Shown piece by piece: positions 3 to 36,209 of a stretch of DNA of 44,425 nucleotides. The stretch covers positions 1 to 44,425 of the forward strand of contig JANQFY010000196.1 of NCBI GenBank assembly GCA_028277585.1, read 5' to 3'. A model generated the notes under the pieces. It was not told where the DNA came from, did not search any database, and was given only the letters and a program-made list of their open reading frames with translations. This DNA comes from Sedimentisphaerales bacterium. Its GTDB lineage: Bacteria; Planctomycetota; Phycisphaerae; Sedimentisphaerales; Anaerobacaceae. Both the position numbers and the translations under genes were made by a program. Numbering within the stretch: the stretch's first letter is position 1; every line of letters starts with the position of its first letter.

Positions 3-776
3 GCGACCGTCTGGTATGCGACGTCGCCGGACGGATACACCTGGGCGGAGAAGGGTGAGGCGTTGCCCCGGGGGGCGCAAGGCGCCTGGGATGCCCAGAG
101 CGTTTTCACGCCCAACATCCTGTGTGCCCAGGGCAAGTACTATCTCTTCTACACGGGCGTGCCCAAGCCTTTCTTCAACAACGGCAACCGAGTCACGAAG
201 ACGGCTATGGGAATCGCGGTGTCCGACTTCCCGGACGGCCCCTGGAAGAAACTGCCCACGAATCCAGCGCTTGTGTGCAGCAACGATCCCGCCCATTTCG
301 ACAGCTTGCGTGTGGATGACGCCTGCCTGATCGCACGCGAGGACAAGTATTGGTTCTACTTCAAAGGACGTCAGTGGGACAACACGCCCGCCAATTCGAT
401 GATGGGAGTTGCGATCGCCGATCATCCTGAAGGCCCGTACATCAAGCATGCGGGCAACCCCATCATCAAAGGGGGACATGAAGTCCTCGTTTGGCCCTAC
501 AAGAAGGGCGTGGTCGCCCTGCTGAACATTGGCCCCCGGGGGATTCGTCGAACGTTGCAGTACGCGCCTGATGGGTTGACTTTCCTGAAGGCCCGGGATC
601 TAGAGAAGGTTCCGAATGCACCGGGCGCATATCGGCCGGAAGCCTTCACGGATAGCGGCAAGGGCGACATGATCGAGTGGGGAATCCACATCGGGCACAC
701 GAAGGGATACCTGCCATTTCTCGAACGATTCGACTGCGAATGGAGCGAGGGGGCTGAAGAGCGACGCGTCCGGTAA
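3..776 (+). CDS. GH117/GH43-like five-bladed beta-propeller glycosidase, 5' partial
   Basis: The reading frame is open from the first bases of the window, so the N-terminus lies outside it; 257 residues are visible. Seen: repeated propeller-blade strands of the type 'KYYLFYTGV', 'KYWFYFKGR' and 'MGVAIADHPEGPY', with a 'DDACLI' segment between blades and 'GHEVLVWPY' further on. These are typical of the GH43/GH117/GH130 propeller group, whose members cleave exo-linked sugars from plant or algal polysaccharides. The DDACL and FYFKGR pattern reminds me most of GH117 (neoagarooligosaccharide hydrolases), but I cannot place the family firmly without alignment. No signal peptide can be judged because the start is missing. 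The nearby sulfatase and MGH1-like hydrolase fit a polysaccharide-degradation setting. An internal TTG at 63 could be miscalled as the start; the frame clearly continues upstream of it. Confidence 0.7.
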   Translation, partial: ATVWYATSPDGYTWAEKGEALPRGAQGAWDAQSVFTPNILCAQGKYYLFYTGVPKPFFNNGNRVTKTAMGIAVSDFPDGPWKKLPTNPALVCSNDPAHFDSLRVDDACLIAREDKYWFYFKGRQWDNTPANSMMGVAIADHPEGPYIKHAGNPIIKGGHEVLVWPYKKGVVALLNIGPRGIRRTLQYAPDGLTFLKARDLEKVPNAPGAYRPEAFTDSGKGDMIEWGIHIGHTKGYLPFLERFDCEWSEGAEERRVR

Positions 777-864
777 TGTGTGACTCGCCAGGACAGTCGT
801 AGTGCATTGGGGCTATGCGCCGGTGACGTACTGGCTCAGCTTCGAGACCCCGTGACAAACGCGG

Positions 865-882
865 TGTCAATTCTACTTGACA
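865..882. promoter_or_regulatory. TGTCAA/TTGACA inverted repeat upstream of the barrel gene
   Basis: TGTCAA (865-870) and TTGACA (877-882) form a perfect 6-bp inverted repeat with a 6-bp spacer. TGACAAACG is also repeated directly at 853-861 and 878-886, and TGTCAA recurs at 909-914. It could be an operator for the gene at 1018. I do not see a matching -10 at the right distance from the TTGACA, so the promoter itself is not located. Confidence 0.3.
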
Positions 883-1017
883 AACGTCACGGTATTGCGG
901 AGAAAACTGTCAAGAAATCCAGACAACTTTGCCGACGAGTCCCCAAACGAAGTCCGGAGATGGTCCGAGAGGCGGCAACGCGGGCCCGATGTTTTGTTCC
1001 TTTAAAGGAGTGTGATC

Positions 1018-1941
1018 ATGAGGCACCGAAAAGTCTTGCTGTTGGGCGCATGTCTGCTGCTCGTATCCGTTATGACCACGTCGGCCTGGGCCTACGCGCA
1101 GTCGCTGCCGGCGGTCAATCTCGGGCTGACCAGCTTCCTGGACGGCGGCCCGCCGGCCGGACCTGGGTTCTATTACACGGGCTATCTCCAATACTACACG
1201 GCTGACGAGTTGGTCGACCATCCGGCGATTCCCAACACGGATGTAGACGTCTGGCTCTATCTTAATCAGTTCATCTATCAGTCCGACACGCCGGTCTTCC
1301 TGGGCGGCAAGTGGGGACTCAATGTCATGGTGCCGATCGTCGGATTCGATACGGACCCCGACATCGACAACGGCACTGGCGTCGGCGATGTCCTGGTTGG
1401 ACCGTTCTTGCAGTGGGATCCGATCATGGGACCCAACGGCCCGAAGTTCATGCATCGCGTTGAGTTTCAGATGCTCTTCCCCGTAGGCAAATACGACGAG
1501 GATGAGCCCATCAACCCGGGCAGCAACTTCTTCTCGTTCAACCCATACTGGTCGGGCACGTACTTCTTCACGCCGAAGTTGACGGCCAGCACGCGCGTGC
1601 ATTATCTGTGGAATGATGAGAACGACGATCCGCTGACGGCCTTGGGGGCCAACGACACGCAAGCCGGCGATGCCATCCATGCGAACTTCACGGTGGCGTA
1701 CGAGTTCATCCCGAAGAAACTGCGGGCCGGACTCAATGGCTACTACCTCAAGCAGATCTCAGATACGGAGGTCAACGGCACGGAGGTTTCGGGCCGCGAA
1801 CAGGTGCTGGGTATCGGTCCTGGTGCGCTCTGGAGTTTCTCCCAGGACAGCCATCTCTTCTTCAATATGTATTTTGAGACAAGTGTGAAGAATCGTCCGG
1901 AGGGCGAGCGCTTCATCTTGCGCTACGTCCATCATTTCTAG
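1018..1941 (+). CDS. Outer-membrane beta-barrel protein, MetA-pathway phenol-degradation family type
   Basis: A 307-residue protein with a clear signal peptide (basic RHRK, then a hydrophobic LLLGACLLLVSVM core, cleavage near ASAWA/YAQS). The rest is alternating aromatic beta strands ending in the phenylalanine-terminated strand RYVHHF, the usual C-terminal signature of a Gram-negative outer-membrane barrel. The pattern (strand pairs, 'GVGDVLVGPFLQW', 'LFPVGKYD', 'NPGSNFFSFNPYWSGTYFF') matches the PF13557 family, 'putative MetA-pathway of phenol degradation', members of which are thought to be hydrophobic-compound channels. That name does not prove a substrate. Start choice: AAAGGAG at 1004-1010 lies only one base from a GTG at 1012 but seven bases from the ATG at 1018, so the ATG is preferred. 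The gene is monocistronic and ends at a strong hairpin. Confidence 0.78.
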   Translation: MRHRKVLLLGACLLLVSVMTTSAWAYAQSLPAVNLGLTSFLDGGPPAGPGFYYTGYLQYYTADELVDHPAIPNTDVDVWLYLNQFIYQSDTPVFLGGKWGLNVMVPIVGFDTDPDIDNGTGVGDVLVGPFLQWDPIMGPNGPKFMHRVEFQMLFPVGKYDEDEPINPGSNFFSFNPYWSGTYFFTPKLTASTRVHYLWNDENDDPLTALGANDTQAGDAIHANFTVAYEFIPKKLRAGLNGYYLKQISDTEVNGTEVSGREQVLGIGPGALWSFSQDSHLFFNMYFETSVKNRPEGERFILRYVHHF

Positions 1942-1958
1942 TCGGTCTTGAACGAACC

Positions 1959-2000
1959 CGTCGGAGACATGAACTCTACACTGGGGTCATGTCTCCGGCG
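1959..2000. terminator. Bidirectional hairpin between convergent genes
   Basis: CGGAGACATGA (1962-1972) pairs perfectly with TCATGTCTCCG (1987-1997); one wobble and two more pairs extend the stem to 14 bp. The loop is 14 nt. It lies between the converging genes ending at 1941 and 2030. No T-tract follows on either strand. Confidence 0.7.
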
Positions 2001-2029
2001 ATCTTCTCATTGCATGTCAGACTGACGCG

Positions 2030-3643
2030 TTAGTCCGTCTTGCTTCCACCCAAAGGGGCGGTCACTCGCCCCAGAACGGGTGATGCCGTGACCTCGACGC
2101 CATCGACCAGGACACGTAGCCCCTTGCCCTTGCCGTAACGTTCCCCGGAGCGATCGTACAGGATGGTGACGATGCGCCCGCGGTACAGAACGTTGTCCAG
2201 GCAGAAGTAATCCCACGTCTTCGCTGGAATCAGAGGATTGACTACGAGCTTCTGGTCCGGGCGAGCCCTGAGCCCCACGAGTCCGCTGATGACCGAATCA
2301 CAGAAAGTCGAGTGGTTGTAATCCTTGCCGCGTTCGATCCCGCCCTTGTGCTTGGGCCAGGACCCGCCTGGCCAGGTCAGCAGTCGCGTGCGCGAGATCC
2401 AATCGCCCGTGTAGGGATTGAGGTTCTCGTCGATCCAGGGCAGAAGCCGACCTTGTTTATCCACGCGCCGATGGCTCCGCGCGTAGGTCTGTATCAGATC
2501 GAAGTAGTCGCGCGCATCGATCACGTCTTGCTGGTAGTCATTCAGGAGGTTCGCCAGGGCGATGAGCGTTCGCGACGTGGTCATCGGCCAACTGGGTCCG
2601 TTCCAGAGACACTGGTGTCCCTCGTAGGCGATGACGAAGCGCGGGTCTCGTTGCTCGGCCGTCGTCGGCCCGTAGGGCGCGGCGAAACCGGCCGGGTCGG
2701 TGAGATGGGTCCAGGCCTGCTCGTAACCCGAATCGGGGAGGTTCACGCACCAAGGCGTGTAGCCGAAGATCTCGCGAACGTCGCTACGCGTCTGCCCATC
2801 TTCCATGAAGACCAGGAAGAACTCCTTGTCTGCGTCCCAGAGTTTCTCCTGAACGAGACGTTTGAGTTTCCTCGCCCTGGCCTCGAAGGCTTCAGCTCGG
2901 GCATACTGTCCCGCTCGTCGGGCCAATGCGGCGATCGCCATGGCTTCTCCGTACATGGCCGAATTGATCGGCGGGCGGAAGCCGTGCCCGCCAATTGAGT
3001 GCTCCGTTCCTTCGCGGTCGTCGATGGTATAGAACAGCCCGTTGTCCCGCAGGCCGATCTCATGGTTGCCCCGCTTCCAGCCCTTTTCCCAGGCGCGGTA
3101 GCAGGCGACCATGTCGTCAAGCAACTCGAGGGGCAACGTCATATCGCCGGTGACATAGGCGCGCTGCAGCACGGCGTGACTTAGCCAACTGGTGTAACTG
3201 CGCGGCCCGTGTATCGTGCCGCCTTTCTGGAACCAGAAGCGGCTGTAGTCGTCAAGGTAGATTGGGGCATGCAGCCATCGGCCCTCGAGGAGATGGAGCC
3301 CGGCGGCGCAGTTGATAGTGTTGTGTTTGCCCGCCCAACCGACGGACGGCAAGAACTCGCTGAGAACGAATCCGTCTGACGTCTGTTTGATGTGCTTGCG
3401 GAATGTCCACCAGCGGAAGTAGTAGGTCAACTCCAGTTCTGTGTCGGGGCACTCAAATAGCGGAATGTTCTTCTTGAGGAACTCCCACGCTCGGGCGTTG
3501 GGAACATGCTGGCGATACAGCTCGTTGTCCTGAGCGTTGAAAGTGTCAATATAGTGCTTGAACCTGTCGCTGTGCAGGACCGGGTTCCCCAGGGCTCGTC
3601 CTGCCGACAGCAGGATAATGATCAGAAGGATAGCGCGTCTCAT
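2030..3643 (-). CDS. Secreted MGH1-like / GH63-type (alpha/alpha)6-barrel glycoside hydrolase
   Basis: A 537-residue protein with an N-terminal signal peptide (MRRAILLIIILLSAGRALG). The body is helical, with repeated helix-loop motifs: 'YYFRWWTFRKH', 'GPRSYTSWLSHAV', 'GLRDNGLFYTIDD', 'CLWNGPSWPMTTS' near residue 345, and a late 'DYNHSTFCDSVISGL'. These fit the MGH1-like/GH63 C-terminal (alpha/alpha)6 fold, used by mannosylglycerate hydrolase, glucosidase I and related enzymes; the WNGPSWP loop forms part of the active-site rim in that clan. A short beta domain at the C-terminus closes the protein. The sugar specificity cannot be told from sequence alone. The gene follows the sulfatase gene with a 47-bp gap and the same GAAAGGTCCAT leader, so the two are probably one operon that strips sulfate and then glycosidic links from an external glycan. 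Confidence 0.75.
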   Translation of the reverse strand: MRRAILLIIILLSAGRALGNPVLHSDRFKHYIDTFNAQDNELYRQHVPNARAWEFLKKNIPLFECPDTELELTYYFRWWTFRKHIKQTSDGFVLSEFLPSVGWAGKHNTINCAAGLHLLEGRWLHAPIYLDDYSRFWFQKGGTIHGPRSYTSWLSHAVLQRAYVTGDMTLPLELLDDMVACYRAWEKGWKRGNHEIGLRDNGLFYTIDDREGTEHSIGGHGFRPPINSAMYGEAMAIAALARRAGQYARAEAFEARARKLKRLVQEKLWDADKEFFLVFMEDGQTRSDVREIFGYTPWCVNLPDSGYEQAWTHLTDPAGFAAPYGPTTAEQRDPRFVIAYEGHQCLWNGPSWPMTTSRTLIALANLLNDYQQDVIDARDYFDLIQTYARSHRRVDKQGRLLPWIDENLNPYTGDWISRTRLLTWPGGSWPKHKGGIERGKDYNHSTFCDSVISGLVGLRARPDQKLVVNPLIPAKTWDYFCLDNVLYRGRIVTILYDRSGERYGKGKGLRVLVDGVEVTASPVLGRVTAPLGGSKTD

Positions 3644-33211: not shown

Positions 33212-33587
33212 GTGGCGATCTCTCTTCAGCAACCCTCCATTGTCAGTCGACAATCTCGAAGAAAAAAACGGAATCTTCGAACTCTCTCTGAATATCAACC
33301 AGTATACCTATGGGATTACAGGTGTGTGCCGTGTTCTTCGACATTTTGGTTTCTGTGAAAACCCGTCTTCCAGCACCTACTCATCGACAACAATCTCATT
33401 GGGCGCCCGCGTGCCCCGAGTGAGTTGACACATTCCGGCCCCTCCATGACGGCCGACGCGTAGCAGCAAACGCATGACCGATCGAAGCCACACGAGCCCT
33501 GGAGGGCCGGCAGGCGCCCCACCAAACTGCACACCATTATCGCTCAGTTGATCGCTGGAACGAGAAGCGAATTAGGGAGGATGAACC
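33212..33587. other. 376-bp intergenic region
   Basis: Lies between two secreted-protein genes on the same strand. It contains a weak hairpin (33256-33280, listed) and is AT-richer at its start. I tested it mentally for riboswitch-like and small-gene structure and found none I can support. A promoter for the next gene should be here but no clear pair of boxes stands out. Confidence 0.5.
33256..33280 (+). terminator. Weak hairpin downstream of the LamG gene
   Basis: TCGAAGA (33256-33262) pairs with TCTTCGA (33274-33280) around an A-rich 11-nt loop. The stem is short and no T-tract follows, so the terminator role is uncertain. Confidence 0.33.
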
Positions 33588-36185
33588 ATGGCGATTCACA
33601 AGAGAGACCGATTTAGTGGGTTCATATTGTTGTGCGTCTCTAGCTGTTTCTTAGGTGCAACTTACGCCGGGAGTCCTACGCTGACTCCGAGTGCTCTTGT
33701 CGAGCCGGGCGGCGTTGAAATCCCTGTGTTTGTCAGAGTGGTTGGGCCGGAGAGCCCCGCCGATCAACTCAATGTCGATCAAACCTTCATCGCGACCAAT
33801 GAGATCCTTATCCAAGCCAATGTGCAGCTCAATGTCGTTGGGTACAAGGCCGGAGTGGAGATTGGCAACGGAGACCGACTCCTGGGCGAGGCCGAGCACG
33901 ACGAGGCCCTGCGCCACACGATCCCCGTGCCCCGATCACCGTGGGATTCACTCAACGGGAATGGCGAGGACCCACTCAAAGAAGCCGGGTGGGGCAATCG
34001 CCACCATCACGGGTGCCCCATCACTATCTACATCGCCGATGATGTCTGGATTGAGCAGCCGGATACCGTGTTGTGGAACGCCGCGTTCTTTCCTGCCGCG
34101 TTCCTGGAGCTAGGTGGCCAGCCTCAGGAGGCGGGGAGGATACTGGCCCGGGAAATCGCCTTTTCCGCCGGTTTATTTCCGTCAGGCGATTCGGGGAATC
34201 TCCTGTTTCCCGACGGAACCAGTTCTCGCCTGGATGACCCCGACCAGACGGTCCCGATTCGAGCCTTCGCTGAGCAGATAGGGCATGTCCGGTCTCCTCT
34301 GGCGAGTAGTTTCGTCGACGACGTTCTCGAGTCGCTGCGATGCCCTCCCCGGAAGGGGGCCCTGTTCGTCCCGGAAGTGGTCGGCCGTTGGGGCGATGAC
34401 CTCGACGATGTAACTCGTGAGGATGTGGGCGGGTCCACGATTGGCCCAGGCGGGCCTGATCTCGAATCCTACACAGCCAAAGCGGGGACGCTCGGGGCCG
34501 ATCTCTCCGAGCGTGACCTGGTCCTAAAGGCTGTTTTCAACGGAGTCGACCTCCATGAGACCATCGGCGTCGATACGTTCATTCGGCGCCACCGTCAAGG
34601 AAACGACACGCTGACCGGTGATGCCTTCCTGGATAACGACGCCGTCATCGGCTTTGGGCCCGGCTTCGTTGGAGGCTTCAACCTCTTGGAATCCGGCGAT
34701 TGGATCGAAATCCCCGGTGCGACCGTGGACGTCGATACGGCGGGGAATCGAACGCGGCTCAAGGCCGTCATACCTATAGTTGACCTGAGTAGCATTCTGT
34801 CGGGCGACCTGTTCGACGCCCTTGTTCACGGCGAACCTCTTGACCTCACGGTAGGGGCCAGCACGTTCATCTTCGACGACGCCGGTTTCACGTTCGAACA
34901 GGACGCAATCTGGTATGCGATACTGGGAGCCTGCCCAGAGCCGCTGCGCTGCGTGACCGAAGAGGGGCTCCTGGAAGATGTCGATCCGGAAACTCTACTG
35001 CCGGGCATCGACGTGCGCACCGCGCTGATCGAGAACCCCGACGACATACTGGTCGACGAGAACCCAAGAGACACTCTGGAGAACCTGTTCGGTGGTTCCG
35101 ATCCCGTCGCCGAGGCTGGTCGTGATGTTGTCGATGTGCTCAACTTCGGCACGAATCTCTCGATCGATCACGGTCTCTTCGGTTCGGCTCAGGGCGCGCC
35201 AGATCAGCCCTATCCAGGGATCCCATTGTCACCGAACGGGGGCCGTCTCTTTGGCACCGAAGCCCATGGCGTCATTGATCTGAACGAGGGCCTGCATATC
35301 TTCGGCATCCACGGCGATGATCGGGCCGTGCTGAAGATTGGGGGCGTTGAGGTCGCCAACACATTGGGCGACCATCTGGGCGCCCAAGACGGCGACAACG
35401 GAGACGGAATGCCTCCGGACAATGGCGAACCGGGCGACGAGAAGCCGGGGCTTCTCAAGCAGGGCGACGCCCCCTTCGAGGTCAAGCGAGCGGGATTCTT
35501 CCCGTTCGAACTCCGTGCTCTCGGTTCCATCCCAGGTCCTTCGGGCAACGGCCCACAGACGTCTTCCGTCGACGACGGGTCCGCCTCTCTCGAAGTCTCT
35601 GTGGTGCTGCCCGACGGGACTCGTGTCCTCCTGGGTGATACCGCCGGCGGAAGCCCGCCGTTGTCCGTTCTGCCCGGAGGTGGGGACTCCCCTGACGGAC
35701 CTGATGAGCCGGGCGACCCCGACACGCCCGATGATCCCGATGACCCGGACGATCCCGACGAACCGGGCGATCCAGCGGATCTGGTTGTCTACGATTTCGA
35801 AAACCGATTCTCCATCGGACCTGAGTTCCGTTCGCGCGGTGACGCAGGCTGGTTCATCCTGACCACAGGCGGCAATTCCGTCGCTCGATCGGGCACGATC
35901 ACCGATGCCGAAACGAGCACCATGGAATTGTCGGTGAACGTCGGGGCCGGGGAGATCACCTTCGAATACTGGGTGTCCACGGAATCCGGCTTCGATGTCT
36001 TCCGGTTCTTCATCGATGGGCAGGAGCAACAGGCCTGGTCCGGTGAGGCGCAGGGCACCGCCTCCTTCCCGGTAGAGGCCGGCGATCGAGTCTTCGCCTG
36101 GACCTACCAGAAGGACGGTTCCGACGCCGGAGGATCCGATCAGGTCCGTGTCGACAACGTCACTCACCCTGCACCCGGGCCCTAG
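33588..36185 (+). CDS. Large secreted protein with a degenerate metalloprotease-like domain and C-terminal MAM-like beta domain
   Basis: An 865-residue protein with a signal peptide (about residues 1-27). Residues about 45-215 read like a metzincin peptidase ('VFVRVVGPES', 'ATNEILIQANVQLNVVGY', 'CPITIYIADDVWI', 'ILAREIAFSAGLFPSG'), but the zinc site HEXXHXXGXXH is R188-E189-I-A-F192-S-A-G195-L-F-P198: all three histidines are replaced while Glu and Gly remain, so it should not bind zinc. Residues 215-698 have no family I recognise; acidic, beta-rich repeats. An Asp-Pro linker (about 699-731, 'DDPDDPDDPDEPGDP') leads to a C-terminal domain about 732-862 of the 'SGTITDAETSTMELSV / FDVFRFFIDG' type, a MAM-like beta sandwich common in secreted proteins. 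Probably a surface binding or structural protein. AGGGAGGA lies just before the ATG. Confidence 0.7.
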   Translation: MAIHKRDRFSGFILLCVSSCFLGATYAGSPTLTPSALVEPGGVEIPVFVRVVGPESPADQLNVDQTFIATNEILIQANVQLNVVGYKAGVEIGNGDRLLGEAEHDEALRHTIPVPRSPWDSLNGNGEDPLKEAGWGNRHHHGCPITIYIADDVWIEQPDTVLWNAAFFPAAFLELGGQPQEAGRILAREIAFSAGLFPSGDSGNLLFPDGTSSRLDDPDQTVPIRAFAEQIGHVRSPLASSFVDDVLESLRCPPRKGALFVPEVVGRWGDDLDDVTREDVGGSTIGPGGPDLESYTAKAGTLGADLSERDLVLKAVFNGVDLHETIGVDTFIRRHRQGNDTLTGDAFLDNDAVIGFGPGFVGGFNLLESGDWIEIPGATVDVDTAGNRTRLKAVIPIVDLSSILSGDLFDALVHGEPLDLTVGASTFIFDDAGFTFEQDAIWYAILGACPEPLRCVTEEGLLEDVDPETLLPGIDVRTALIENPDDILVDENPRDTLENLFGGSDPVAEAGRDVVDVLNFGTNLSIDHGLFGSAQGAPDQPYPGIPLSPNGGRLFGTEAHGVIDLNEGLHIFGIHGDDRAVLKIGGVEVANTLGDHLGAQDGDNGDGMPPDNGEPGDEKPGLLKQGDAPFEVKRAGFFPFELRALGSIPGPSGNGPQTSSVDDGSASLEVSVVLPDGTRVLLGDTAGGSPPLSVLPGGGDSPDGPDEPGDPDTPDDPDDPDDPDEPGDPADLVVYDFENRFSIGPEFRSRGDAGWFILTTGGNSVARSGTITDAETSTMELSVNVGAGEITFEYWVSTESGFDVFRFFIDGQEQQAWSGEAQGTASFPVEAGDRVFAWTYQKDGSDAGGSDQVRVDNVTHPAPGP

Positions 36186-36209
36186 CCAGGGTTGCCGTGA
36201 GCGTTAGCG

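Follow-up and report, generated by a model that had tools for sequence, protein, structure and literature searches.

The window analysed here, a stretch of 44,425 nucleotides from a Sedimentisphaerales bacterium, comes from an assembly of 532 contigs that is 80% complete. It contains an open reading frame of 865 codons (Table 1), whose GC content by codon position is coding-like and resembles that of the adjacent genes. The neighbours encode a LamG-type protein with a dockerin-like end, a GH-like protein, DUF2961 and GH130 proteins, glycosyltransferases and a UDP-sugar dehydrogenase. In three congeners (G002, G004 and G005) at most ~25 bases separate the LamG gene from the GH-like gene, and in G001 the spacing of ~2.5 kb between the GH-like gene and the dehydrogenase gene fits the same empty arrangement. 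The corresponding site in the window spans ~3.0 kb and holds the 865-codon gene as its only gene. G003, nearest of the congeners by IleRS, has no GH-like gene and is uninformative for the site. We found no direct repeats flanking the ~3-kb segment and no RNA family within it, and a scan for promoters and terminators at the locus gave chance-level results. From the synteny, insertion in the host lineage would be the most economical explanation; the alternative would be loss of the segment in the congeners.

Table 1. Features of the 865-aa protein gene and its locus (positions in the window).
Feature	Position	Strand	Basis
Segment of ~3 kb that congeners G002, G004, G005 (G001 by spacing) lack at the syntenic site	33212..36209	.	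synteny
ORF of putative secreted multidomain pseudo-metzincin, 865 aa	33588..36185	+	frame without internal stop; coding-like GC by codon position
Signal peptide-like segment, residues 1-29, MAIHKRDRFSGFILLCVSSCFLGATYAGS	33588..33674	+	sequence; helix 2-25 predicted
Predicted metzincin-fold pseudo-catalytic domain, residues ~39-262, core 45-219	33702..34373	+	HMM E=3e-9; AF2; Foldseek/VIA reprolysin matches
W163-N-A-A166, family WxxH motif, near-invariant His lost	34074..34085	+	relatives' alignment
Degenerate zinc-binding helix R188-E-I-A-F192-S-A-G-L-F-P198	34149..34181	+	relatives' alignment
Degenerate Met-turn N204-L-L206-F (family type N-x-x-M-Y)	34197..34208	+	relatives' alignment
Orphan region, residues ~236-500	34293..35087	+	no detectable relative
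PA14-like domain, residues ~501-696	35088..35675	+	common to PEP-CTERM proteins L038, L039
Pro/Asp/Gly-rich linker, residues ~697-732	35676..35783	+	sequence
MAM-like C-terminal module, residues ~733-865	35784..36182	+	found as well on GH5-like and other secreted proteins

The signal-like N-terminus suggests that the protein is exported. With the whole protein as query there was no match in Pfam or NCBIfam and no meaningful match in a sequence search of the PDB; no relatives were found in the viral contigs searched, and none of the 161 genomes of the order, five congeners included, yielded an orthologue. A preliminary description of this DNA had assigned about 480 residues after the N-terminal domain to no family. 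This stands for ~265 of them, the orphan region, but not for the stretch that follows, which is PA14-like: the corresponding region of L038 has a sub-threshold match to PA14 (PF07691; 16.9 of 24 bits), and that of the 865-aa protein itself gives no match at the PA14 gathering cut-off. The C-terminal module was earlier called MAM-like, and this was borne out, since it matches modules on a GH5-like protein (L004), a putative glycosidase (L005) and others (names read from sequence) and so recurs on glycoside hydrolases. No Pfam model recognises the copy in the 865-aa protein, and we consider the label a fair one. Within this bacterial family such modules are common on secreted proteins (L004, L005, L018 and others) and appear to be a general part of the secretome in these bacteria. 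Two other matches were discarded: L063, from the same genome, is a sensor histidine kinase and a spurious relative, and L040, which matched residues 304–397, has four stops inside the match.

The first search for relatives with the whole protein returned two N-terminal homologues, L019 and L022, and the family was extended by a search with the L022 domain and then by profile searches. It is present in 12 of the 161 genomes of the order (the genome of the window counted), and further members come from other parts of the class and phylum. An HMM was built from the relatives only, leaving out both the 865-aa protein and L031, a relative described below. With Z=100000, it finds residues 45–192 of the 865-aa protein (envelope to 219) at E=3e-9 and 39.6 bits, against 3.5 bits for the best of 200 shuffled sequences, so that the N-terminal domain has significant profile similarity to a family of Planctomycetota proteins that carry HExxH. 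Relatives of this kind had been anticipated, and the motif stands at the aligned column in 17 of the 18 clear relatives, the exception being L031; the contrary outcome, homologues without HExxH at that column, was looked for and did not occur. A nineteenth and weak match, L054, has a canonical HETAHNLGLKH. The family is essentially unnamed in Pfam, and we found no description of it in the literature. One member, L068, just reaches the Reprolysin_3 (PF13582) cut-off with 22.4 bits; the 865-aa protein has no match at the gathering cut-off of that model.

The members of this unnamed family (L023–L030, L032, L033, L035, L042 and L064–L068) share with the 865-aa protein the N-terminal domain, a signal-like N-terminus, a W..E.P.T strand region and an EF-hand-like acidic loop (GNxDGxLTxxE, residues ~92–104), which is conserved throughout the family and partly kept in the 865-aa protein. 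They differ in retaining HExxH, the NxxM turn and, in most cases, WxxH, and in having a different middle domain, to which profile comparison detected no similarity in residues 231–735, and often dockerin-like or PEP-CTERM ends in place of the PA14-like and MAM-like modules. They look like secreted metzincins of Planctomycetota (for example L023, L032 and L042), with a third ligand that is apparently variable, H or D at positions 11–13. In L045, an HExxH-bearing relative, one frame (1883–2554, +) stops after 223 aa and the next family domain lies in another frame (2457–3443, +), a frameshift that is either real or due to assembly.

Where the relatives read HExxHxLTLxx followed by an NxxMY-like turn, the 865-aa protein has REIAFSAGL and NLLF. 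In a gapless alignment of REIAFSAGLFPSGDSGNLLF (865-aa protein) with HEFGHSFGLDDINDPKNLMH (the reprolysin-like relative L068), the first and second zinc-binding His are replaced by R188 and F192, the third ligand, D in L068, by P198, and the Met-turn Met by L206. The alignment of relatives thus confirms the earlier reading of residues 188–198, REIAFSAGLFP, as a HEXXHXXGXXH site that has lost its His residues; neither the zinc-binding consensus of active metzincins (HEXXHXXGXXH/D) nor their Met-turn methionine is present. A fixed third His had been expected; that the third ligand is lost holds, but the variable family ligand does not fit a single fixed His. Similarly, of the Glu and Gly said to be kept, Glu189, the general base, is indeed retained, but most close relatives (HExxHxLTL) have Thr in the column of Gly195, where Gly occurs only in the distant L067, L068 and L054, and the conserved Gly is therefore weaker evidence than was supposed. 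The damage goes further than the preliminary description stated, in that both the Met-turn Met and an upstream near-invariant His are also gone; this His, replaced by A166 here, stands in the WxxH motif of all but two of the 17 clear HExxH members (15 of 17). A separate His cluster, HHH at residues 139–141 (34002–34010), lies directly before the strand ITIYIADD; it does not occur in the relatives and may be a surface metal site.

Structure prediction and a fold search had been proposed as a check on the N-terminal domain. An AF2 model of residues 39–262 made together with four relatives (five sequences) had a mean pLDDT of 51, with a core (model residues ~11–70 and 131–150) at ~70–79 that runs strand-helix-strand-...-strand-strand-helix. 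The degenerate motif (model residues 150–160) starts in the predicted active-site helix, 141–155; these strands and this helix are predicted at metzincin positions, in agreement with the earlier impression that the flanking strands are peptidase-like. Confidence is low after residue ~195, so that the geometry of the Met-turn is modelled unreliably. The top Foldseek match was 3k7l (E=4.7e-4, probability 1.0), and nearly all top matches were ADAM or venom metalloproteinases. VIA-align gave Z 12.2 to 2e3x (127 residues, rmsd 3.0) and Z 12.0 to ADAM22, a pseudoprotease. The predicted core therefore has metzincin topology (pLDDT ~70–79, VIA Z ~12), with low confidence after residue ~195, and the model supports a metzincin fold nearest to reprolysins and ADAMs. 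A full-length AF2 model (pLDDT 34) was too weak and was dropped for claims about the fold.

The one clear relative that also lacks the HExxH motif, L031, is an 832-aa protein (ORF 541–3021) with a DUF4347-like region (E=1.2e-4; 22.3 bits, cut-off 24.6) in front of its domain (~1501–2010, +). In the tree it is the sister of the HExxH-bearing L028, with support 97/95, and a single origin of the two dead members is compatible with none of the bootstrap trees. On this phylogeny HExxH was lost at least twice, in L031 independently of the 865-aa protein. The branch leading to the 865-aa protein is long (3.58), and its exact placement in the tree is unsure.

We conclude, with a probability of roughly three in four, that the gene encodes a catalytically dead, extracellular pseudo-metzincin with a binding role. 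The earlier proposal of an inactivated secreted metzincin is backed by the family alignment, the HMM built without the window's protein, the predicted fold and the tree. The protein is homologous to peptidases that bear an active site, has lost the catalytic residues and keeps its frame intact, as pseudopeptidases do; within the metzincins it is a non-peptidase homologue, having the fold and lacking what defines the active site. The domain would descend from a reprolysin-like metzincin peptidase and would then have lost zinc binding. Because all three ligands, the Met of the Met-turn and the near-invariant His are replaced, it should not cleave peptides by the metzincin mechanism, and its inactivity, read from these replacements, is well supported. 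That it binds something is suggested by analogy: the retained fold, through the old cleft or its surface, would most likely present a binding surface for a peptide, a glycoprotein or a partner protein, and the PA14-like and MAM-like modules may attach it to polysaccharide or cell-surface material.

The dead site could instead reflect lack of any function, in a gene acquired by horizontal transfer or duplication that is now drifting. Its status as a genus singleton at a site empty in four congeners, the very long branch and the missing orthologue would all fit such a relic. However, the signal segment and all modules are intact, as is the 865-codon frame with its normal coding composition. To reach the present codons at the five key positions from the expected ancestral ones takes at least 10 base changes in 15 nucleotides, and in neutral simulations with 0.2 or 0.3 changes per site none of 400 frames stayed open; drift sufficient for the changes at the site would thus have interrupted an unselected frame. 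These results point to selection on the frame from the loss of the site onwards, unless the site changed fast, recently and under strong local selection, and we regard decay as unlikely.

Less probable still is retained catalysis, by a rearranged metal site (such as one at HHH 139–141) or by other chemistry on the same fold. Glu189 remains as a potential general base and the His cluster could bind metal, but no homologue has such a cluster there, it lies before a strand and outside the helix, and the Met-turn is gone too. We give hardly any credence to a coincidental fit to HEXXHXXGXXH in a domain unrelated to metzincins: the absence of Pfam and NCBIfam matches would be in keeping with it, but the homology to the HExxH family and the predicted metzincin fold contradict it. 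The fragmented and incomplete assembly makes one think of a sequencing or assembly artefact, which we consider equally implausible, as the ORF has neither frameshift nor stop, the base substitutions are scattered over five codons, and the remainder of the domain has diverged equally.

Pseudopeptidases are already known as a kind, and the 865-aa protein is a further, bacterial member; the metzincin pseudopeptidases reviewed in PMC11266112 are animal proteins. The catalytically dead ADAMs (ADAM2, 11, 18, 22, 23 and 32) bind partners via the domain surface (PMC11266112). Like them, the 865-aa protein would combine a secreted or surface metzincin fold whose zinc ligands are replaced with accessory modules, and ADAM22 is among the closest folds to its predicted domain; unlike it, they come from animals, carry disintegrin and Cys-rich domains and keep the Met-turn Met (PMC11266112, table). 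We found no sequence-level link between the two. The likeness to reprolysin-like metzincins (Pfam Reprolysin_3, M12B) lies in the predicted fold and in L068, whereas the 865-aa protein has no Pfam score and none of the ligands. More tentatively, the former substrate cleft may serve as a receptor for glycoprotein or polysaccharide, in a metzincin family, poorly recognised by Pfam, that repeatedly yields dead members (the 865-aa protein and the DUF4347-fused L031) as a bacterial parallel to the pseudo-ADAMs. A bacterial pseudo-metzincin with HExxH relatives and a second, independent loss offers a tractable case in which to test how a peptidase fold becomes a binding module, and the relatives themselves form a metallopeptidase family barely recognised by Pfam, in bacteria with many carbohydrate-degrading enzymes. 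Outside the metzincins, FtsHi4 of plant chloroplasts has REAAV in place of HExxH (PMC11266112); it belongs to the unrelated peptidase family M41 and is intracellular, but as in the 865-aa protein the first His has become Arg and the Glu is retained.
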